This document shows, one piece after another, positions 1 to 20,536 of a stretch of DNA of 20,831 nt (the stretch's first letter is position 1; each line of letters begins with the position of its first letter). The notes beneath the pieces are model-generated. The model was not told the DNA's origin. It was given only the letters and a program-made list of their open reading frames with translations, and ran no database searches. This DNA comes from a virus: the IMG/VR virus record IMGVR_UViG_3300047274_000085, positions 1 through 20,831 of that record; one strand, written 5' to 3'. A program made the translations under genes and the position numbers.

Positions 1-1182
1 CTTAAGAGTAATACCGGTCCTTGATAGTCTATCTCTTGGTCTATGAATAACAGGTCCTATATTTTGTAAATTGTTTTTAGTAATCCTGTGATAATTTTTC
101 TTTCGATCATTTCCAAAGTATCCAGTGTCGATATAGTAGAAATCTCTCCCAGTTGCCCAACATTCTTTAATCTGCTTTCTCTTTCCGAGCCCTCTGAGAG
201 CTACCGGAGTCATTGATGTTGCAGTCTTGTCCCAAAGAGTGATCTGGCCACCCACGCCCATAATAAAATTTTCAAGTACTGGATCATATTTGGCATTTTT
301 TTGAATATGCTTTTCTCCTATGTCGCCTTCATTTACTGCGGCAACTACTTTGTTAGTATTAATCATTTCAATTTCCTTAAATATATCCGCCTTTGTAATT
401 TGATAATACTGTCCTGCCGGATCAACTCTATATTGTATTAATTTATCAACTATGTTTTTAATTTCTTCTGGAAGATATAAAAACTTTTTATCTCTCGATG
501 CTACTGTAACGTCTTCTTCGTAGAGTAATTTCTCCCTCTCCCAGTTCGCACCGTACTCACAATGAAAATAATTTTCAAACCAAGGGCCGCCTTCAGTATA
601 GTGTATAGCTTTAGGTTTTCCATTCTCTGGTTCTTTATACCAGTTTACTAACCAGTTCCACTCGTGACTTATGGAACCTATCTCTTCATCCTTAAGCCAT
701 TGAAATCTGTGTAAGAACGCACCAGTTTCACTGTTGACTAACTCCGGCGTGACTACACTATTCGACGGGTGGCCGCAGTTCCATAGGATCATCGATGACC
801 AATTCTTTCTTGGGTATAGGTGTTGACTCTTACCATCCATCTTAACGGTATTCGTTGGATTATAGTCATGTTGCACAACCATCACAGCATACTGATCATC
901 GGCAAGATTGAATAATTCTTTGATATCTGCTTGCCACAAAAAGTCACAGTCTACAAATACTGCCCAACCTTTGTAATCGGTGAGATGGGGAACTAAGAAT
1001 CTACTAAAAGTGAATTCAGTAGATCCTAGAGAATCTTCGGGTCTCCAGTAGATATTTTTATCCCTTAATTCAGGTAACTTTAAAGGAATAACTTCAGCAT
1101 GTGGCTGATGCCTTAATATACTATGTCTGCATATTTGGTATGCGATATCTTCTCTCGAGTCGTAGCCTACAAATACTTTCAT
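1..1182 (-). CDS. Glycosyltransferase with extra C-terminal domain (3' end cut by window edge)
   Basis: The frame is open for 394 codons from ATG 1182 to the window edge, so the C-terminus is missing. Residues 1-85 read as a nucleotide-diphospho-sugar transferase: a beta-strand start (MKVFVGYDSRED), then a hydrophobic strand ending in VFVDCDFLW with a DxD metal/sugar-nucleotide motif at D78-D80. This resembles family-8-like enzymes. The catalytic part probably runs to about residue 250 (aromatic-rich, YTEGGPWFENY). After about residue 275 a second segment begins, with MGVGGQITLWDK and then FYYIDTGYFGN, which I do not recognise as part of a glycosyltransferase. The start overlaps the stop of the upstream nucleotidyltransferase-cupin gene by four bases (ATGA), so the two are probably translated together. 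The likely role is modifying a phage or host surface glycan, with transcription from the late promoter ahead of its partner. Donor and acceptor cannot be told. The enzyme class is fairly sure; the role is inferred. Confidence 0.75.
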   Translation of the reverse strand, partial: MKVFVGYDSREDIAYQICRHSILRHQPHAEVIPLKLPELRDKNIYWRPEDSLGSTEFTFSRFLVPHLTDYKGWAVFVDCDFLWQADIKELFNLADDQYAVMVVQHDYNPTNTVKMDGKSQHLYPRKNWSSMILWNCGHPSNSVVTPELVNSETGAFLHRFQWLKDEEIGSISHEWNWLVNWYKEPENGKPKAIHYTEGGPWFENYFHCEYGANWEREKLLYEEDVTVASRDKKFLYLPEEIKNIVDKLIQYRVDPAGQYYQITKADIFKEIEMINTNKVVAAVNEGDIGEKHIQKNAKYDPVLENFIMGVGGQITLWDKTATSMTPVALRGLGKRKQIKECWATGRDFYYIDTGYFGNDRKKNYHRITKNNLQNIGPVIHRPRDRLSRTGITLK

Positions 1183-1925
1183 CGTCTTTCTATGTCCTCT
1201 TCCACACACTCAGAGCCGTGTTGTACTTCTAAAATATGACACGGAGTAGTTCCGGTATTGTATGCTCTATGCCAAACTTCTATGCCAATGTCATAACTGC
1301 TGTTTGTTGAGATCTTTACGTTATTTTTTGATCCCAGGTATTCAGTTTCAACATTTATAGTTCCACTTAATACGTGCCAGTGTTCTGATCTTTTAAAATG
1401 CCGTTGCATACTTAAACTCTGTCCAGGCATGACGACCAGCTCTTTTACCTTGTAAACTTTATGGTCATCTAGAACACGCCAGTAACCCCACGATCTTTCC
1501 GTCTTTGGTTCTTTCCATTCTTGCAAGATCCAACTACTAGAATTTTTCTTATCTTCGCCGCCGACGCCAAAAACAAATTCTACATCTTCAAATACCATCT
1601 CCGGTATATTGTCTTTTGTTCGGTCACCGCCGTTAGCAAATATTATTTGATGATTAGGAAAAATATCTTTGACCTTGCGGATAGCATCAACGGCTGTACC
1701 ATCATCATCGTTAAAGTTGATGACTCTATCTACACAATGTAGTTCCCCAATGATAGTAGCTCGCTCTCCCCAAGGTAAGAAAGGCCTACCTTTTTTACGG
1801 GTAAGCCAATCGTTTGAATTTATACCAACAATTAATTTATCGCCAAGTTCTCTTGCAGAGCGAAGATATGCTATGTGTCCAGAATGTAACGGATCAAAAC
1901 CACCAGTAACTAAAACTATTTTCAT
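1179..1925 (-). CDS. Nucleotidyltransferase-cupin fusion (cytidylyltransferase-like + ManC-type isomerase-like domain)
   Basis: A 248-aa two-domain protein. Residues 1-135 are a cytidylyltransferase-like nucleotidyltransferase: TGGFDPLHSGH at 7-17 carries the HxGH motif (H14, H17), followed by NGGDRTK at 98-104 and SSSWI at 129-133. Such enzymes join a nucleotide to a phosphorylated sugar or alcohol. Residues about 145-248 are a cupin like the C-terminal part of type II mannose-6-phosphate isomerase/ManC, with PGQSLSMQRH at 167-176, EHWHVLSGT at 181-189 and a closing ILEVQHGS..EEDIERR. The fusion suggests one protein making or epimerising an activated sugar for the glycosyltransferase that follows with a four-base overlap. 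The ATG lies five bases after a late -10 box, with no Shine-Dalgarno sequence in between. The domains are clear; the substrate is unknown. Confidence 0.85.
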   Translation of the reverse strand: MKIVLVTGGFDPLHSGHIAYLRSARELGDKLIVGINSNDWLTRKKGRPFLPWGERATIIGELHCVDRVINFNDDDGTAVDAIRKVKDIFPNHQIIFANGGDRTKDNIPEMVFEDVEFVFGVGGEDKKNSSSWILQEWKEPKTERSWGYWRVLDDHKVYKVKELVVMPGQSLSMQRHFKRSEHWHVLSGTINVETEYLGSKNNVKISTNSSYDIGIEVWHRAYNTGTTPCHILEVQHGSECVEEDIERR

Positions 1926-10686: not shown

Positions 10687-11754
10687 TTAAGGTCCTCCGC
10701 CGGTAACGTTCCTAGCAGTTGCCACAGTAGTTGTTGCGGTATTAGATATCGGGAACGATGTATTGTTTATTCCGCTAATACCTTGAGTGGCTACAGTTTG
10801 GAGGCCTTTTGTAGCAATGCCTGTAACTTCTTGAGTTACACCTGCTTTGCTGAGATTTTTTGCATTTTGATATGTGTTTACTGCGGTAATAGCTGTAGAG
10901 ATAAAATCTAAAGGACTTTCAAATGCTCGACCGCTGGCTATGTTACCGGATACTGCTTCAATACCAGCTAATACTCCGCCAGAACCAAATAATGTTCTTG
11001 TTCCACCACCTGCTAGGCTTAGAGGACTTGGAACAGTATCGTAATGTTCGATACCAAATCCCGGAGGATTTCCTTGATATACATTACCAGTATCATAATA
11101 GACCGCTTCGTAGTCAAGAGTCATTGAATTTTCTACTGGAGCAGATGCAGAATAATCCATAGTGTCATGATTCCATGCACTGATAATTGGATTAACTAGT
11201 GTAGCACTGTTCCACGAGTGTCTTGCCATTTGATAGATAGTAATCTTATCAAAGAATGGAATGCTACTGTTATTATCTAGACCGTAGGTTGTTCTTACAT
11301 AACTAGGTCCTAGCATACTGGTTCTGTTATATGCACCATATTGCTTAGACGCTGTAGGATCTGCATAGTAATAGCTGTAGTAGTTTTCCCACAATTGACG
11401 AACAACGCCAAAGTTATCATCATGGAAGGTGATGTTAATTGGTTGATAATCTATTTTTGTCTGTACTACTTTTTTTCTATTGTACTGATTTAACTTTTCT
11501 GTAGTTATTTGAAACTTAGGCATGTCTGCCTTTTTAACCAACATATTGATTTCGTTCTGATGCTGATACTTAAAGTTTAAACTTTTAAGAGCATTAGTAT
11601 TAATACTAAAAACTACGTGGAAAAGAAACTTAACCTTAGGCGCTAGACGAAAATCATTATCAGTGAATAGTCTAGCCGCGTGTTGGAAATCCCCAAGTGT
11701 TCCCTTAGGGTTTAATAATCCGTTGGTTAAGTATTTTAAAAAAGGACTGGCCAT
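10687..11754 (-). CDS. Tail-tube-fold protein, probable baseplate/tube initiator (gp48/gp54-like)
   Basis: A 355-aa protein whose first 225 residues echo the tail tube protein gp19 next door: LAPKVKFLFHVVF here against LMPKLKYRFRVMF in gp19, then a MPKF....LNQYNRKKVVQ stretch against NVTFADQVIEVYNSKIHYAG, and a strand-rich PINITFHDDN against ATIAVSLRDD. The C-terminal 110 residues are G/A/S/T-rich and probably extended. In T4 the baseplate proteins gp48 and gp54 share the tube fold and start the tube, so this is most likely one of those. Which one cannot be said without structure comparison. The start is five bases after a GATAAATA late box, with no clear Shine-Dalgarno. A terminator separates it from gp19. 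Confidence 0.75.
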   Translation of the reverse strand: MASPFLKYLTNGLLNPKGTLGDFQHAARLFTDNDFRLAPKVKFLFHVVFSINTNALKSLNFKYQHQNEINMLVKKADMPKFQITTEKLNQYNRKKVVQTKIDYQPINITFHDDNFGVVRQLWENYYSYYYADPTASKQYGAYNRTSMLGPSYVRTTYGLDNNSSIPFFDKITIYQMARHSWNSATLVNPIISAWNHDTMDYSASAPVENSMTLDYEAVYYDTGNVYQGNPPGFGIEHYDTVPSPLSLAGGGTRTLFGSGGVLAGIEAVSGNIASGRAFESPLDFISTAITAVNTYQNAKNLSKAGVTQEVTGIATKGLQTVATQGISGINNTSFPISNTATTTVATARNVTGGGP

Positions 11755-12475: not shown

Positions 12476-12483
12476 TATTTATA
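12476..12483 (-). promoter_or_regulatory. Consensus late -10 box TATAAATA for gp19
   Basis: TATAAATA on the minus strand is the exact T4 late consensus. It contains the gp18 stop (TAA 12479-12481). The predicted start near 12470 gives a 13-base leader carrying AGGAG. Confidence 0.7.
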
Positions 12484-15400
12484 GCCCAGAGATCTCGCCA
12501 GTGTTCTTCAAGCGTAATGGAATGTAAATGAATTCCACTGCCTTAACTGGTTCAATAGCGATATCAATGTACAACTCGTTACGATCGATTCTGCTTGGAG
12601 TGTTGTTAGACTCATCGCAAACTACTAGGTAGTCGTAAAGAGCACGTTGACCTACTAGTTCTAATAATAGGCTTTCAACTGCGGCCTTAATCTCATCTCT
12701 AGTGATCTTGTCATTAGGTTCAAAGATATAAGGTTTAGCAAGAGCACTTAGCTGTCTACGTAGATAAACTACTAGACGTGCTACGTTAATACGATCTAAT
12801 GCACTTGCGGCTCTAGCACGAGTATATTGGCCATAGTTAACTAGACCAGTACCTGTGATAAATGTAATTGGGTTTACTTTAATGCTTGCTAGTGTATCAC
12901 GTTGACCAACGTTTAGAGCGACTGATTTAAATTCGCCTTCTTGGCTGTCAACATAACCAACTGCTGTAGCATTAGTAATACCGCCACGACGTACACCTGC
13001 TGGTGCAAACCATGGATAAGCAACTTGGTCGTTCAACGCGATAGTGCGTAGGATCATGTGGCTTGGTGGAACAACTACGTTGTTACCAAAGTTATCGCTG
13101 GTGTAACCCCATGGATAAAATACGCCTAGATACTCATCGCTAGATACTAGACCAACATCGTTGTCTTCTACTGCTAGATCTTGGTTTGTACCCCAATTTA
13201 ACAATGTTGTAGCATCGCTGGTTAAACGTGCAGGTGTGTCGCCAACTACGAATGCTGTTAATCCACGATCGTAGTTTAAGCTAACTAGTTCACCGATTAG
13301 TTCTGGATAACCTGGGCAAGCAATCAAGTTAAACACACGTGATTCTTCATCACGGATCTGTTGGTTGCTGTTTACAGTTGCCTGTAGAGCTTGTACGATA
13401 ACCTTGCGCTGTGCCTTACGTCCAAATGTTCCTGAACCGTCTTCTTGGTTTCCGGACTCTGTTACCCAACGGTGTGGATAGTAGCTGTCCATTGACTCGC
13501 TGTTGTTGAAACGCTCGTTGTCTCCGGCGACATCAACATAATTCTGTACGAATTTCTTAACGTTGAATCCTGAACGACGTAGGTTCCATAGCAACATGCC
13601 TTTTGGATATAGTGCTGGATCTGGAGCGTCAAAGTCTAGGAAGTTGTTGGTTAATAAGTCTTCAATTGACCCAGCTTCATCACTGTTTGCGCCTGCTGTG
13701 TTGTAACGAGCATCAGCGAATAACACACCGTCTTCTGTGCTTTGGTCTGTCTTGTCAACTAATACCCAACGCTGTAGATCTTTGTTGTACTTGTAGATAG
13801 TTGGGAAATTCTCAATATCGTTTGTGTCAATCCATAGATCGCCGTTAGCCAATGGGCTATCGTCGCTCTGTGTTTCTGGTTCTGTTGCAGAAACGATAGG
13901 ACCTGCTGGATCAGTAGCATCATCCCCTGTGTCATAGAATGGGCTTGTTGAATCTTTGTAGCCTACCCATGTAGAACCGTTGTGAATCATGATGTCAATT
14001 TCATCAACAACTGAGCTATACCATAATGTACCGTCTTCAGTTAATGAACTTGGAGCATCTGCGCCAGCTGTGTAGCTTAGTTCTTCCCATAGTGTAGCAA
14101 GGAAGTCTGCACCAGTGCCAGCAGCCGCATCAACTAGGTTAGTAGTTGCCGCAGATCCAGATGTTGCAAAACCAATGTCGGATAATCCGCCATCTGTGTC
14201 AGTGATTAACATTTCACCGCCCTGTGCATGGCTGATCACAACTCTGTTCTGGCTGTCAACTTCTGCTGTAACATTTTGGAATCCAGCGGAATTAATTGCG
14301 CCGGCTACAACATCTGCATCAGTTGTGGCACCAGTCGCTGTAAAGCTAACTGTTATTACTGATTCTAAACTTTCGCTTCCAGCATCTGATTCTGCTAGAT
14401 TAAAAGTATATGTGCCAGCCGCTAAACTCGATGCTGTAATCTTAGCAGAAGTGATTGTTGTTGCACCGACTGCGGATCTACGGAAAATTGTAAAATCTGC
14501 AACTGTTGGGAATGTGTCAACACCAGAATTTTCTGTTACGTTAGATTTGGTAAACAATGTTCCAACTGCTAGGTTTGCACCACCACCCGTTCTGTCTAAA
14601 TTGTATAGAGCTGACTGATTTGTAGCATAGATAGGAGCCTCAACTGCTTCCCATAGCTGTGTTGTTGAATTATAACGCTTGACTCTCCAACGTGCTCCGC
14701 TGTTTGGTTCTGTAGTTTTAATCCATACAGACCCAGTTGGACGTGGCTGAGTGTCACGTGTCTTATAAGCAGGAACTTGTGTATGTTTGTCGATGGTTAA
14801 CTTAGGCATGTAGTATGTGCCGGCTGTTAGACCTAGTGCAGATAATGTAGCTGTGCCTGCCGCAACTACAATGCTGTTAACTGTACCGTCGGAATAAATT
14901 TCTAATACGTTATTTCTAACACCAGCACTTACGCCACTAATTGCCGCATCATTAATTGAGTCAGCTACTGCGCTGATTGTTGTTCCGTCTATAGTGACAG
15001 TGTTACCGTTAAGTAAAAGTGTTGTTGCATCGACGATAGTTCCTACTGCACCGCCAAGCACTGTTGGCCAGCTTGCTGTCCAGTCGTTTGAACCAACTTT
15101 AACCCATGCTCCGTCTCTGTTCTTGTAGAACATTTCGTTAGCTGTTGAAGTTGTAACAATAGCGTAGTCGCCAATTGCGCCAACGGATGTTTTCGGAATA
15201 CCACTAGATACCTTAGTTGTATCTGTAATCACGATCGGAGTCTTATTAGTGAATGTCTGTGCCGAAGCCGGTGAGCTTGTGCTCTTAGCTGTGCCGTCCC
15301 ATTCAAAAATACCAAATGCTGTGTTGGCAGTGTCAAACCAGTATGTACCGTTTGATGGTTCACCAGTTGGTGCATCTGCGCTAGCATCTAGCTGATTTAG

Positions 15401-15745
15401 GTCAACGTCTGCACGTACTACGAAAGCACGGTTGCTAACACCTAACAAGCTATAGGCCGCTTGTAGACCGTATTCGTTCTGCTCGCCAGCATGGATAGGA
15501 TTGTTATTAGCGTCAGTTTTAAATACTGGATCGCCGAATGTATCCGCCAAGTCTTTCTGGCTAGTTAGAAGATAAACTTCTCCAGCGTTGGCCTTAAGTG
15601 TGCCAGGTGCTGTACCTGTGCCTCCGCCGTTGGATTTGTTTTCAGCTGAGGCGACAATAATCAAAGGTACTGTGCCAGGCTCAGCTGGTGTATAAAAGGA
15701 TTCGTCAATTACCTTGACTTCTACGCCTGGTGAACTTAATGCCAT
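12479..15745 (-). CDS. gp18: Tail sheath protein gp18, greatly enlarged with repeated modules
   Basis: A 1088-aa sheath protein (T4 gp18 is 659 aa). Residues 1-115 and 675-1088 match the conserved sheath parts: the MALSSPGVEVKVIDES start, ALQATVNSNQQIRDEESR, an APAGVRRGGI loop, and the C-terminal polymerising domain (ASALDRINVARLVVYLRRQL, then LYDYLVVCDESNN). The 560 residues between hold at least five short Gly-Trp modules of the form G-x-x-W-x-x-T ... NG-x-W at about 132-152, 192-217, 338-367, 572-595 and 635-663. Between them are two beta-rich blocks with alanine/aspartate-rich helices (ADSINDAAISGVSAGV; VVAGAINSAGFQNVTAEV). The inserts should decorate the outside of the sheath. It has an AATAAATA late box, a 27-base leader with AGGAG, and gp19 directly downstream. 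Confidence 0.96.
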   Translation of the reverse strand: MALSSPGVEVKVIDESFYTPAEPGTVPLIIVASAENKSNGGGTGTAPGTLKANAGEVYLLTSQKDLADTFGDPVFKTDANNNPIHAGEQNEYGLQAAYSLLGVSNRAFVVRADVDLNQLDASADAPTGEPSNGTYWFDTANTAFGIFEWDGTAKSTSSPASAQTFTNKTPIVITDTTKVSSGIPKTSVGAIGDYAIVTTSTANEMFYKNRDGAWVKVGSNDWTASWPTVLGGAVGTIVDATTLLLNGNTVTIDGTTISAVADSINDAAISGVSAGVRNNVLEIYSDGTVNSIVVAAGTATLSALGLTAGTYYMPKLTIDKHTQVPAYKTRDTQPRPTGSVWIKTTEPNSGARWRVKRYNSTTQLWEAVEAPIYATNQSALYNLDRTGGGANLAVGTLFTKSNVTENSGVDTFPTVADFTIFRRSAVGATTITSAKITASSLAAGTYTFNLAESDAGSESLESVITVSFTATGATTDADVVAGAINSAGFQNVTAEVDSQNRVVISHAQGGEMLITDTDGGLSDIGFATSGSAATTNLVDAAAGTGADFLATLWEELSYTAGADAPSSLTEDGTLWYSSVVDEIDIMIHNGSTWVGYKDSTSPFYDTGDDATDPAGPIVSATEPETQSDDSPLANGDLWIDTNDIENFPTIYKYNKDLQRWVLVDKTDQSTEDGVLFADARYNTAGANSDEAGSIEDLLTNNFLDFDAPDPALYPKGMLLWNLRRSGFNVKKFVQNYVDVAGDNERFNNSESMDSYYPHRWVTESGNQEDGSGTFGRKAQRKVIVQALQATVNSNQQIRDEESRVFNLIACPGYPELIGELVSLNYDRGLTAFVVGDTPARLTSDATTLLNWGTNQDLAVEDNDVGLVSSDEYLGVFYPWGYTSDNFGNNVVVPPSHMILRTIALNDQVAYPWFAPAGVRRGGITNATAVGYVDSQEGEFKSVALNVGQRDTLASIKVNPITFITGTGLVNYGQYTRARAASALDRINVARLVVYLRRQLSALAKPYIFEPNDKITRDEIKAAVESLLLELVGQRALYDYLVVCDESNNTPSRIDRNELYIDIAIEPVKAVEFIYIPLRLKNTGEISGL

Positions 15746-15785: not shown

Positions 15786-15841
15786 GGTTTCCAACCAAAA
15801 CCGCCCAGTTATACTACCTGAAAAGGGATGAAAAAGGGCAG

Positions 15842-15849
15842 GATAAATA
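15842..15849 (+). promoter_or_regulatory. Late -10 box GATAAATA for the HNH gene
   Basis: GATAAATA, CGTGT, ATG 15855 on the plus strand, the same five-base spacing as at minus-strand genes. It decides the start of the HNH gene. Confidence 0.6.
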
Positions 15850-15854
15850 CGTGT

Positions 15855-16196
15855 ATGACACGGCCTTTATGTATCTGCGGCCTAAGACCAGCCGCAATTA
15901 ACTATCACAAGAATGGACGCACCTTCTACCGTAAGAAGTGCGAAGCTTGCCTTAAGCATGGTGGAATAGAGAAAGGGCTACCGCGCTGGTATCGTGACGG
16001 TTATAGGATGAAGAACGTCTGCGACAAATGCGGGTTTAAGAGCAAGTATAAAGAGCAGTTTAATGTTTTTCACATGGACGGAAATCTAAACAATAGCCGC
16101 CCAAGTAATCTTAAGACAGTGTGTGCAAACTGTCAACGAGTCCTACATAAAGAGGGCGTTCAGTGGCGTCAGGGCGATCTACGACCAGATTTCTAA
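15855..16196 (+). CDS. Small HNH-type, double zinc-site nuclease
   Basis: A 113-aa protein with two zinc sites: C6-x-C8 with C29-x2-C32, and C56-x2-C59 with C90-x2-C93. Between the second pair lies HMDGN (H73, D75, N77) then N80 and NL, the usual layout of a treble-clef HNH nuclease, and H98 may complete it. The layout is like small phage HNH enzymes and distantly like T4 endonuclease VII, which resolves branched DNA before packaging. The gene is the only plus-strand one between gp18 and gp13. The start at 15855 is chosen for its late box; an in-frame ATG at 15828 lies upstream of that box and has no spaced ribosome site. Its 3' end overlaps the gp1 gene by 86 bases. It could be a packaging nuclease or a homing enzyme. 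Confidence 0.82.
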   Translation: MTRPLCICGLRPAAINYHKNGRTFYRKKCEACLKHGGIEKGLPRWYRDGYRMKNVCDKCGFKSKYKEQFNVFHMDGNLNNSRPSNLKTVCANCQRVLHKEGVQWRQGDLRPDF

Positions 16197-16863: not shown

Positions 16864-17625
16864 TTAGCCAATTATGAAACTGTAGCCAGTTCCACCAGAA
16901 ACTAGTGTTTCTAATTCTTTGTCTAGCTTTTCTAGGTCTTCTTTACCCGAGGATTTTAAATCAGAGCCGTTAAGTGCTCCACCACCTTGCGGGCCAGCGA
17001 TGCTGGCAAACTTACTGCGAGCTTCACCTAACATGATTTTACAGTTGGCTAGAGCATAATCTCTGATCCATTGCTTGGCATAAATGTCTTCAATTATAGT
17101 ATAGTCTGGTCTGTAATTTTGGCAACGTAGCATTAAAACTTCGCCTTCGGTAAACGGACGCTGTAGGATCCTTAGTGTACGGCTAGTAGGAATCCATTGG
17201 AATTCAATGTAGCTACCAAACATTTTACCCACCATTTCTTGATAACCAGCGAACATATAATAGGTGCTAATGCCTCCTAGCATTGTACTGTTCAACAAGT
17301 AGGTGTTTGTATAGGCTAGATTAAATGGCTCAAAATTAGTACCAGTTCCGCCGCCAGTTCTAGATCCTAGGGTTCTACGGAAAACACTTTGAACGTTGAT
17401 GATTTCTTGAGGGAGTGTGTAGTCGTTTTTGTCTTTTTCTAAGGTTAAAAACACATAGCTTTCTTCTACAGAATTTGAACTACGCTGTCTAAATCTAGTT
17501 AGAGCGCGATCTAATGCAGTTTCATAATGCACTGGATCTAATTCTACATCAATCATACCGTCACCTAGCATAGTGCGGCAATAATCGTATACTCGTTGTT
17601 TAACTTCTGTTGGATTGTCTGACAT
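16864..17625 (-). CDS. gp13: Neck protein gp13
   Basis: A 253-aa homologue of T4 gp13 (309 aa), a head-to-tail neck protein that joins the portal vertex after packaging. Family-like features are the helical start (VKQRVYDYCRTMLGD), the LDPVHYETALDRALTRFRQRS helix, the VFLTLEKDKNDYTLPQEIINVQSVFR beta segment and the YAKQWIRDYALANCKIMLGEARSKFA helix near the end. The C-terminus is G-rich. The start is ATG 17625 (MSDNPTEV), served by GGGGGAG; an earlier in-frame ATG at 17640 abuts the promoter and would give an untranslatable leader. It is divergent from its partner gp14. Confidence 0.9.
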   Translation of the reverse strand: MSDNPTEVKQRVYDYCRTMLGDGMIDVELDPVHYETALDRALTRFRQRSSNSVEESYVFLTLEKDKNDYTLPQEIINVQSVFRRTLGSRTGGGTGTNFEPFNLAYTNTYLLNSTMLGGISTYYMFAGYQEMVGKMFGSYIEFQWIPTSRTLRILQRPFTEGEVLMLRCQNYRPDYTIIEDIYAKQWIRDYALANCKIMLGEARSKFASIAGPQGGGALNGSDLKSSGKEDLEKLDKELETLVSGGTGYSFIIG

Positions 17626-17640
17626 TTCGTTCTCCCCCAT

Positions 17641-17656
17641 TATTTATCGCTAAATA
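17641..17656. promoter_or_regulatory. Back-to-back late promoters for gp13 and gp14
   Basis: ATAAATA (minus, 17641-17647) and CTAAATA (plus, 17650-17656) are separated by two bases, forming a near-palindrome. T4 late promoters need only the -10 box, so two can sit this close. The predicted leaders are about ten bases (gp13, starting GGAGA) and two bases (gp14). Confidence 0.65.
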
Positions 17657-17663
17657 TTGTACT

Positions 17664-18959
17664 ATGCCACGATTATCACTTTACAAACCCGAAAAAGGTG
17701 CAGACTATAAGTTTATAGATCGCCAAATTTCTGAAATGTTTCAGATTGGTGGTACAGACGTTTATCTGCACAAATATCTAGGACCTAGAAATCCAGACGA
17801 TGCAGATGCTACGGCTGATCAACCGCAGTATGACGTTGTTAAAGAAACTAACATACAAGACCTATTATTTTTAGAAAATCGTGATAGGAAGTATAGTTCT
17901 GATATCTATAGAATACGTGGTGTATACAATGTACAAGATATTGATTTTAATCTAAGTCAATTTGCTTTGTTTATTGAAAACGATACGATTTTCATGACTG
18001 TACACATCAACGACTTTGTTAAAAACATAGGTCGTAAACCCGTAGCCGGTGATGTTGTTGAGTTACCGCATTTGAGAGACGAACACGCCCTCAACGATCA
18101 CGACATAGCCCTACCAAGATTTTTTGTTATCAGTGATGTTGCTAGAGCCGCAGAAGGATTTAGCAAAACATGGTATCCACATTTATATAGATTAAAATTA
18201 AGTAAGTTTAATGACCAGCAACAGTTTTCAGATATCCTCGTTAAGCCTGCTGATTCAGATGTTAACTTCAAAGGTGAATTTAGTTCTACAACAACATACA
18301 AAGTAGGAGATGTTGTTAGATATGAAGGCAGTCTATATCAAGTAACCGCAGAAACTACAGGTAACTTGCCCACAGACGCAGATTATTTCAGCACGTATAC
18401 TGGTCCTAGTCTACAACAGGTGCTTAGTGCTAGATCTAAAGAGTTAGAAATCAATGATGCTGTACTAGCTCAAGCAGAATCTGATTCGCCACTGAGCGGA
18501 TACCAAACTGAACAATTCTATACACTAGCAGTTGACGACCAAGGTAAACCCTTGTTAAAGACAGCAGACGAAACAGATATAGATACTTCTTCTACAACAT
18601 TAGATGCTAGTCGCATGGCTGAGAGACCAAAGAGGAGTGGATATACCGGTTACTTATTAGGAGACGGTATACCAGACAATGGTGTAGATTTTGGTCATGG
18701 TACTGCTTTCCCAGCCAGTGCCGTTGACGGTGACTATTTCTTAAGGACAGACTTCTTTCCAAATCGTCTGTTTAGATTTGACGGTATACGCTGGATCAAG
18801 AGAGAGGATGCTGTACGACATACACTAACAAATACCGATTCTCGTAGCACTCTTAAAACCGGTTTCATTAATAATACAACCACTGATACTATTGCTGGAG
18901 AAGAAGTAGCTGAAAGACAAGCACTTTCTAAGGCACTTAAACCTAAGGCGGATCTATAA
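17664..18959 (+). CDS. gp14: Neck protein gp14 with inserted modules
   Basis: A 431-aa homologue of T4 gp14 (256 aa). The conserved first 190 residues include ETNIQDLLFLENRDRKY, a DIYRIRGVYNVQD segment, HINDFVKNIGRKPVAGDVVELPH and HLYRLKLSKFND. Two additions are visible. Residues 201-245 have the form of a chitin-binding-type module (TYKVGDVVRYEGSLYQVT), and residues 355-380 carry DGDYFLRTD ... LFRFDGIRWIK, the same kind of Gly-Trp module seen in gp18. Between them (residues 250-270) lies the conserved ELEINDAVLAQAE segment. gp14 joins gp13 at the neck. The start at 17664 follows the CTAAATA late box by seven bases; an ATG at 17610 would lie inside the gp13 gene. The stop overlaps the gp15 start by one base. 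Confidence 0.88.
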   Translation: MPRLSLYKPEKGADYKFIDRQISEMFQIGGTDVYLHKYLGPRNPDDADATADQPQYDVVKETNIQDLLFLENRDRKYSSDIYRIRGVYNVQDIDFNLSQFALFIENDTIFMTVHINDFVKNIGRKPVAGDVVELPHLRDEHALNDHDIALPRFFVISDVARAAEGFSKTWYPHLYRLKLSKFNDQQQFSDILVKPADSDVNFKGEFSSTTTYKVGDVVRYEGSLYQVTAETTGNLPTDADYFSTYTGPSLQQVLSARSKELEINDAVLAQAESDSPLSGYQTEQFYTLAVDDQGKPLLKTADETDIDTSSTTLDASRMAERPKRSGYTGYLLGDGIPDNGVDFGHGTAFPASAVDGDYFLRTDFFPNRLFRFDGIRWIKREDAVRHTLTNTDSRSTLKTGFINNTTTDTIAGEEVAERQALSKALKPKADL

Positions 18960-20536
18960 TGCAGTTTTTCTACGACGGTCAAATAAGAAGATATATTATA
19001 CAAGTTATTCGTTTAATGTCTAACTTTGTAGTCAAACACGGCGACGGCACTCTCCAACGAGTTCCAGTAATGTACGGCGACATTGATCGCCAGGCTGCAC
19101 ATATAATCAATCAAGGTTCTGAAAACAATCTAAACTCTGCTCCAAGGATCGCAGTTTATGTTACTGATTTAGATCTTGATAGAACTAGACTAGGTGATGC
19201 TACTCACGTAGGAAAAGTACATATTAGAGAAAGATCTATCGAAGACGGTTCATATACTAGTCAACAAGGACAAAACTATACTGTTGAACGTTTGATGCCT
19301 ACTCCCTACAAATTAACTCTTAAGGTTGATATATGGAGTACTAGCACAGAACAAAAATTACAGATATTAGAACAAATTTTAGTATTGTTTAATCCGAGTT
19401 TAGAAATACAGACTACAGACAATTTTGTTGACTGGACCAGTTTAAGTGTTGTTGAACTAGGTGATGTAACATTTAGTTCAAGATCGATCCCAGTAGGTAC
19501 TAACATCAGCATTGACGTTGCTAGTTTAAGTTTAGAAACACCTATATGGATCACACCTCCTGCTAAGGTTAAGAAACTCGGTGTTGTTACTAACATCATT
19601 GCTGGAGTCTTTAGTACAGTTGGAGCTCCAGAAACCGGTTACATTGACGGGCTAGGCACCGACATTATGGGCGGTCAAGCATATCCTAGCAATCCTATCC
19701 TTAATCAAAAAACCACCATCGGTAATTTTGACATTGTTGTCACTGAAGGTAGTATTAGACTAGTAAGCAATACAGATCCAGGAAGTTATCTAGCTTGGAC
19801 TATGATCCTTGATCAAAGCCCCGGAACCTATCAAGCAGGACTCAGCAAGATTTATCTACTACAAAGTGACGGATCAGAGATCGTTGGATACATCAGTTTA
19901 AATCCGTTAGATGGCACATTCCTGTCTGTTAATTGGGATGAAGACACGTATCCATCAAATACGTCAATCGAAGGCCCAGCTAGAGATTCAAACTCGTGGG
20001 GATCTTTTGACGCAATCATTGATCCGACTACGACCGGTCCTAGCAATTTAGAAATAGGTACTAGATATCTTATCATTGAAAGCATCGGAGGTGGCGTAAG
20101 AGATACGTTTACTACTACTAGTAGAATCCAAACCATCAACACAGGTGTAGCATTTGATAAAGTTAATGAGTTCAAATTACTCGTCGACGATGCAGAGGTT
20201 GGTGCAAATTCAGCCAACAGGAACGGAAATTTTTATATCGTAGCTGACGAAATTATTCCTGCTGGCAGTGTTGTAACATATATACTTAACTTCAACGAAG
20301 ACGGGCCGGATGCTTGGAAAAATAGCAACAGTAGTGACTTTATAGCAGAAGCTAACGATATCATCGAGTGGGACGGCGATACTTGGCACGTAGTATTTTC
20401 GGCGCAAGAGCACGACGATGTTATTGTTTATCAGACAAACATCTATACTCTAGTTCAATATAAGTGGAATGGAGTGAGTTGGGTCAAGTCCTTCGACGGA
20501 GAATATAGGCGAGGCGAATGGAGACTGGAACTTTAA
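18959..20536 (+). CDS. gp15: Tail sheath terminator/stabiliser gp15 with long C-terminal extension
   Basis: A 525-aa homologue of T4 gp15 (272 aa), the ring that caps tube and sheath and joins the tail to the neck. The conserved part covers about residues 1-200: FFYDGQIRRYIIQVIRLMSN, RVPVMYGD, NYTVERLMPTPYKLTLKVDIW, QKLQILEQILVLFNP and a closing LSLETPIWITPP. Residues 205-525 are extra and rich in G, S and T. They end in two tryptophan-rich modules, IIEWDGDTWHVVF at 468-480 and VQYKWNGVSWVKSFDGEYRRGEW at 499-521, like those in gp14 and gp18. AAGGCGG lies eight bases before the ATG, inside gp14, and the stop and start overlap (TAATG), so it is translationally coupled to gp14. Confidence 0.9.
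   Translation: MQFFYDGQIRRYIIQVIRLMSNFVVKHGDGTLQRVPVMYGDIDRQAAHIINQGSENNLNSAPRIAVYVTDLDLDRTRLGDATHVGKVHIRERSIEDGSYTSQQGQNYTVERLMPTPYKLTLKVDIWSTSTEQKLQILEQILVLFNPSLEIQTTDNFVDWTSLSVVELGDVTFSSRSIPVGTNISIDVASLSLETPIWITPPAKVKKLGVVTNIIAGVFSTVGAPETGYIDGLGTDIMGGQAYPSNPILNQKTTIGNFDIVVTEGSIRLVSNTDPGSYLAWTMILDQSPGTYQAGLSKIYLLQSDGSEIVGYISLNPLDGTFLSVNWDEDTYPSNTSIEGPARDSNSWGSFDAIIDPTTTGPSNLEIGTRYLIIESIGGGVRDTFTTTSRIQTINTGVAFDKVNEFKLLVDDAEVGANSANRNGNFYIVADEIIPAGSVVTYILNFNEDGPDAWKNSNSSDFIAEANDIIEWDGDTWHVVFSAQEHDDVIVYQTNIYTLVQYKWNGVSWVKSFDGEYRRGEWRLEL

Follow-up and report, generated by a model that had tools for sequence, protein, structure and literature searches.

Multi-domain tail sheath proteins of more than 1000 residues are already known from giant phages. 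Type 3 multi-domain sheaths, in the available text of Evseev 2022 (PMC9230969), have a conserved core formed from the two ends of the chain and beta-rich additions, mostly called Ig-like, which lie away from the tube; ideas of adhesion and stability for such extra domains are already in print there. The sheath of Agrobacterium phage Atu_ph07 was modelled in the same study with five or more domains, and the available text contains no repeat or slot analysis (the word 'repeat' occurs 0 times). FliD-like sheath domains have been published for XM1 (PMC10457771) and for PhiTE, Sf14 and Adele (PMC12846349).

The DNA analysed here is a stretch of 20,831 bases from a virus record (referred to throughout as the window), which encodes a sheath protein of 1088 amino acids. 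Like the Type 3 sheaths it has a two-ended core with beta-rich additions, which consist of five Gly-Trp modules (M1-M5) and two beta-alpha-beta cassettes (BA and BB); of the latter, BB is matched better by flagellin/FliD outer domains than by Ig domains. The insertion domain of XM1 and the lateral domain of PhiTE, Sf14 and Adele are of the same fold type and are also carried on a sheath core, but there is one such domain per sheath, whereas the window sheath has two cassettes set on a Gly-Trp frame.

The closest known proteins are the sheaths of Atu_ph07 (ASV44714, 1086 aa) and of Sinorhizobium phage Phosso (1091 aa), which are about 50% identical to the window sheath in the best aligned segment and have a mean identity of 43-44% over pieces covering 86-88%. 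Both have the same core, the five Gly-Trp modules in order, and two of the three intermodule connections (slot 1, M1-M2; slot 2, M2-M3; slot 3, M3-M4) filled by extra domains; however, slots 1 and 2 are filled and slot 3 is short in Atu_ph07, whereas slots 2 and 3 are filled and slot 1 is short in the window sheath. The RaK2-like sheaths (RaK2, CBB, 121Q and Munch; 884-888 aa) and that of PA5oct (879 aa) share the core and a filled slot 3, with M1, M3 and M4 detectable (some weakly), and the gene order dNMP kinase - sheath - tube is common to RaK2, CBB and the window. Unlike the window sheath, these proteins have an empty slot 2 and weak or missing modules, and are 200 residues shorter. T4 gp18 has the same core fold and the same order of core halves, while Gly-Trp modules and cassettes were undetected in it.

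The sheath gene and its neighbours

The 1088-aa protein was identified as the major sheath protein of the tail in a jumbo-type myophage related to T4 (T4 gp18 superfamily). The PHROG_10581 tail sheath profile matched across residues 1-1083 (E=1.5e-234), PF17482 (Phage_sheath_1C) matched with E=5.5e-16 (58.9 bits against a cut-off of 26.9), and T4 gp18 was matched by sequence over residues 842-1077. The core fold, built from both chain ends, aligned to 9f4a, the sheath of a Klebsiella phage KP1-variant, with a VIA Z of 29.7 (335 residues, 3.3 A) and to the solved sheath 3j2m with a VIA Z of 26.8; among viral models the closest (TM 0.72) was that of a sheath of 1037 residues from an uncultured myovirus. 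Residues 1-115 aligned with residues 1-115 of the XacN1 sheath (hhalign, E 2e-34). PF04984 (Phage_sheath_1) was without a match at E 0.001 anywhere in the window; this model misses some sheath families, and the fold aligns. The features of the gene are as follows.

12479..15745, minus strand: tail sheath protein gene (gp18-like), 1088 aa; PHROG_10581, PF17482, T4 gp18 and VIA matches
15401..15745, minus strand: sheath core, N-terminal half (residues 1-115); mean pairwise identity of 77% among family members; XacN1 match
15248..15382, minus strand: Gly-Trp module M1, residues 122-166 (GTYWFDT...GIFEWDG); profile match to M4 (87%) and M5 (68%)
15068..15190, minus strand: Gly-Trp module M2, residues 186-226 (GDYAIV...YKNRDGAWVKVG); conserved within the family
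14798..15055, minus strand: cassette BA in slot 2, residues 231-316; FliD/flagellin IN-like, homologous to BB
14630..14764, minus strand: Gly-Trp module M3, residues 328-372 (GSVWIKT...VKRYNSTTQLW); profile match to M5 (75%)
14135..14494, minus strand: cassette BB in slot 3, residues 418-537; predicted flagellin/FliD outer-domain fold (AF2, VIA)
13940..14062, minus strand: Gly-Trp module M4, residues 562-602 (GTLWYSS...IMIHNGSTWVGY); profile repeats
13742..13885, minus strand: Gly-Trp module M5, residues 621-668 (GDLWIDT...IYKYNKDLQRWVLVD); profile repeats
12482..13741, minus strand: intermediate domain followed by the C-terminal core (residues 669-1088); mean pairwise identity of 71% over 669-780 and 82% over 781-1088

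Two tail-tube paralogues were found downstream of the sheath gene; on its upstream side are genes for a dNMP kinase, for a head-tail adaptor and for a sheath stabiliser of the gp15 type, an arrangement consistent with a T4-related structural cluster. The second tail-tube-like gene (10687-11754, minus strand, 355 aa) stands beside the usual one (208 aa); its product has a C-terminal extension, since only residues 38-223 match tube families, and the lengths of its homologues vary widely. The gp15-type stabiliser (18959-20536, plus strand) is also long at 525 aa, with PF16724 over residues 4-214 and a variable, tryptophan-containing C-terminal half (identity of 65% over residues 1-155 against 27% over 300-450). 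A virion structural protein (phrog_11591; 17610-18959, plus strand) carries a CBM_5_12 carbohydrate-binding module at residues 224-248, which looks like an optional insert as, of the 39 homologues in the fetched loci, only 6 extend over the segment. A small HNH-like ORF (15828-16196, plus strand), below the Pfam cut-off, separates the sheath gene from that of the dNMP kinase, lies on the strand opposite to the sheath gene and is a possible homing endonuclease. At the start of the window (1-1925, minus strand), a cytidylyltransferase fused to a mannose-6-phosphate isomerase-type cupin adjoins a family 8 glycosyltransferase, and sugar-nucleotide and glycosylation functions are possible for these genes in the phage.

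Repeats and cassettes within the insert

The original prediction held that this sheath is about 430 residues longer than that of T4 and that the extra length lies between conserved ends, and both statements were borne out: the protein has 1088 residues against 659 (+429), and positions 13720-15380 correspond to residues ~123-675, flanked by residues 1-115 and about 680-1088. The figure of about 560 residues also given there is true of the region as a whole, but it does not describe a clean insertion, as the net gain over T4 is 429 and T4 gp18 has unrelated middle domains where the 1088-aa sheath carries its 560-residue region. The five modules and two cassettes occupy residues ~120-670, between the two halves of the core.

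The family alignment (close relatives together with Atu_ph07 and Phosso) was cut into segments for profile-profile comparison. Module pairs were recovered with probabilities of 87% (M1-M4), 75% (M3-M5) and 68% (M1-M5), while the best pair involving a core segment, used as a control, reached only 2.8%; the cassettes BA (residues 226-322) and BB (residues 395-545) were matched by hhalign with a probability of 93% (E 2.3e-7). Following column shuffling, none of 60 shuffles reached the observed score for BA-BB, M1-M4, M3-M5 or M1-M5. The link of M2 to the other modules was not clearly above chance, the M2-M4 score being reached by 1 of 60 shuffles. On the basis of the comparison and the shuffles the Gly-Trp repeats are real, and the claim of at least five modules stands for M1, M3, M4 and M5, which are linked as repeats, and for M2 by motif only. 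The neighbouring gp53-like and gp15-like proteins have motifs of similar appearance, but profile comparison with them gave a probability of at most 8%, and HMMs of the modules had no convincing match among the 1096 non-sheath ORFs of the loci.

An AlphaFold2 model of the full-length sheath, built from a 77-sequence alignment, had a pLDDT of 87.6 and a pTM of 0.71. Each Gly-Trp module was modelled as three short strands (for example 637-640, 649-654 and 659-662), and the cassettes as strands, one main helix and strands, with the helices at 257-266 and 476-486. The two beta-rich blocks with an alanine-rich helix had been correctly anticipated, and are moreover two copies of one domain type. The insert is multi-domain with real repeats, rather than one ordinary sheath domain, and the confident model of a core, two cassettes and Gly-Trp modules gives the protein the three or more compact domains (core included) by which Type 3 sheaths are recognised.

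A resemblance of the cassettes to the hook-IN domain was visible from the sequence ahead of any fold search. When BB alone (residues 413-545) was modelled with AF2 (pLDDT 90.8) and searched with Foldseek, the top eight matches were all flagellin or FliD, with modest E-values (best 0.008), and Ig matches were weak (prob <0.4) and ranked behind the flagellar ones. BB aligned to a Vibrio flagellin with a VIA Z of 9.9 (98 residues, 3.1 A), to the extra domain of the PhiTE sheath (residues 86-175) with a VIA Z of 9.4 (2.3 A over 85 residues) and to E. coli FliD with a VIA Z of 8.7. As predicted by the model, BB has the flagellin/FliD outer-domain fold, and BA would have the same fold by its homology to BB. 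The Flagellin_IN family (PF07196) matched BA below the curated cut-off (E=0.72; 10.5 against 22.7 bits), with no match in the six frames, and a search of PDB sequences with the BB profile returned nothing at E 10, so that the relation to flagellin rests on the fold and the weak Pfam match. The cassette is accordingly described as folding like flagellin/FliD domains, and is not assigned to the Flagellin_IN family.

Frame and slots among relatives

The sheath family is abundant, relatives of the 1088-aa protein being encoded on at least 596 IMG/VR contigs, and sheath lengths in the comparison set ranged from 659 (T4) to 1292 aa. In a large clade of T4-related jumbo phages an oversized sheath is the norm, and the feature is not confined to this phage. 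A complete M1-M2-M3-M4-M5 frame was present in 146 of 168 sheaths, always in this order; since modules were assigned iteratively under an order constraint, weak assignments in distant sheaths (those of the RaK2 group) are biased in favour of the frame. Viral contigs were also scanned with back-translated patterns from the Vibrio 2.275 sheath, which gave no loci, and from the Atu_ph07 sheath, which gave three only; these low numbers reflect the narrowness of the patterns.

Intermodule lengths were bimodal, at 9-29 or 117-126 residues for slot 1, 1-23 or at least 74 for slot 2, and 44-73 or at least 140 for slot 3, and the M4-M5 spacing was short in every case. All slots are empty in the 792-aa sheath of locus L149, while slot 2 is filled in L170, slot 3 in L127, both of these in the window sheath, and slots 1 and 2 in Atu_ph07. 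The fillings were homologous across slots, as seen for slot 2 of the window sheath against slot 1 of Atu_ph07 (E 1.7e-8) and for slots 2 and 3 of the window sheath against each other (E 9e-7). Any relation of the slot 2 insert of the L106 group to BA was undetectable, and slot changes are therefore not all of one event type. The largest filling seen, of 530 residues, was in slot 3 of the 1292-aa sheath of L117, and apparently contains further internal repeats in which glycine, threonine and alanine abound.

Turnover and divergence of the cassettes

By parsimony on core-only trees, which were quick trees, slot 2 needed at least 11 changes, against at least 4 in slot 3 and 1 in slot 1. Within the clade of the window (94 sequences) there were at least six gains or losses of the slot 2 cassette BA, and the Gly-Trp frame and BB were retained in all members. 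BA is absent from L130 and L132, the cores of which are 88% identical to that of the window sheath, and is cleanly missing from L126, with the reading frame kept. Mean pairwise identity was 82% for the C-terminal core, 77% for the N-terminal core, 60% for the Gly-Trp frame, 48% for BB and 43% for BA. An exposed decoration that contraction can do without would fit both the rapid divergence and the repeated disappearance of BA from sheaths with an intact core.

Placement and possible role

Taken as one joint reading, the sheath is quite probably a conserved core with an outer Gly-Trp frame, the tolerant slots of which accommodate outward cassettes that face the environment. The core (residues 1-115 and about 680-1088) would be expected to bind the tube and contract as in T4, and between its halves the chain passes through five short Gly-Trp modules, each of three strands and always in the same order, which would make up an outer frame. 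The M1-M2, M2-M3 and M3-M4 connections are tolerant slots, at which phages of the clade have inserted or lost extra domains, slots 2 and 3 of this sheath each holding one putative flagellin/FliD-type domain. Each sheath copy would then show its cassettes on the outside of the tail, remote from the tube, in a position where changes to them would leave contraction unaffected. By analogy with the homologous lateral domains of solved sheaths the cassettes are probably placed outward, given the rule, stated in the available text of PMC9230969, that extra sheath domains point away from the tube, and given the lateral domain of PhiTE, which is of the same fold type and is reported to have no direct part in contraction (PMC12846349). 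Hundreds of copies per tail, as had been supposed, are plausible by analogy with the relative phAPEC6, the tail of which has 25 hexameric sheath rings and about 150 copies (PMC7247149). Stability or adsorption in sea water had also been proposed, but the hosts of the closest relatives that have names are soil bacteria (Agrobacterium and Sinorhizobium), and a marine setting is therefore not what these phages share.

It could be argued that the cassettes and Gly-Trp modules act as a cement, contacting neighbouring sheath subunits and stiffening or stabilising a long tail without facing the environment. Sheath size rises with genome size, cementing is already proposed in the available text of PMC9230969, and the Gly-Trp frame and BB occur in every member of the clade of the window, as structural parts should; yet BA comes and goes among close relatives with cores still 80-88% identical, and both cassettes are the fastest-diverging parts of the protein, which is unusual for a load-bearing interface. 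We regard cementing as an appreciable but lesser prospect. A role as weak adhesins for host surface glycans would agree with the rapid divergence and turnover of the cassettes, and Ig-like and similar surface domains of phages are suspected of glycan adhesion (PMC9230969, available text), but no binding-module match was found within the sheath insert and a shared fold says nothing of function; this role is considered unlikely.

The insert might also be supposed to form or anchor the long tail 'hairs' of CBB and phAPEC6, as these phages are related to phages with long sheaths (884 aa in CBB, 887 aa in 121Q) and the phAPEC6 sheath protein is of 97-kDa. Hairs occur, however, at only three ring positions on the phAPEC6 tail of 25 sheath rings (PMC7247149), those of CBB measure about 119 nm, a length well out of reach for a cassette of about 100 residues, and the whiskers of Atu_ph07, with its 1086-residue sheath, are mainly on the capsid (PMC6102473). 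This highly improbable role was rejected on the published cryo-EM and TEM (phAPEC6, PMC7247149; Atu_ph07, PMC6102473).

Surface decoration is the best reading because the insert lies at the site of the lateral domains in other sheaths, is the part that diverges fastest and is in part dispensable in close relatives. We favour environment-facing display as the role, with weak host-surface contact or shielding for the dispensable BA, while the Gly-Trp frame and BB, both kept throughout the clade of the window, may be the more structural part. More tentatively, and with some doubt, the clade may have evolved a surface-display platform, in which a fixed Gly-Trp frame with three slots has flagellin-like and unrelated cassettes swapped in and out.

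No description of a Gly-Trp frame with slots and cassette turnover was found in the literature searched, which left most subscription journals outside. What is added here is the slot-by-slot layout, in which the order of the Gly-Trp frame is kept and three slots are empty or filled. As the window sheath and those of L126, L130 and L132 form natural pairs differing mainly by one lateral domain, the role of an extra sheath domain is directly testable. Flagella and phage tails, which are helical assemblies unrelated to each other, would both use the flagellin/FliD-type fold for an outer domain. If the platform reading is true, what the tail displays to hosts or competitors would change without touching the contraction machine, much as the outer domains of bacterial flagellins vary around a constant filament core.
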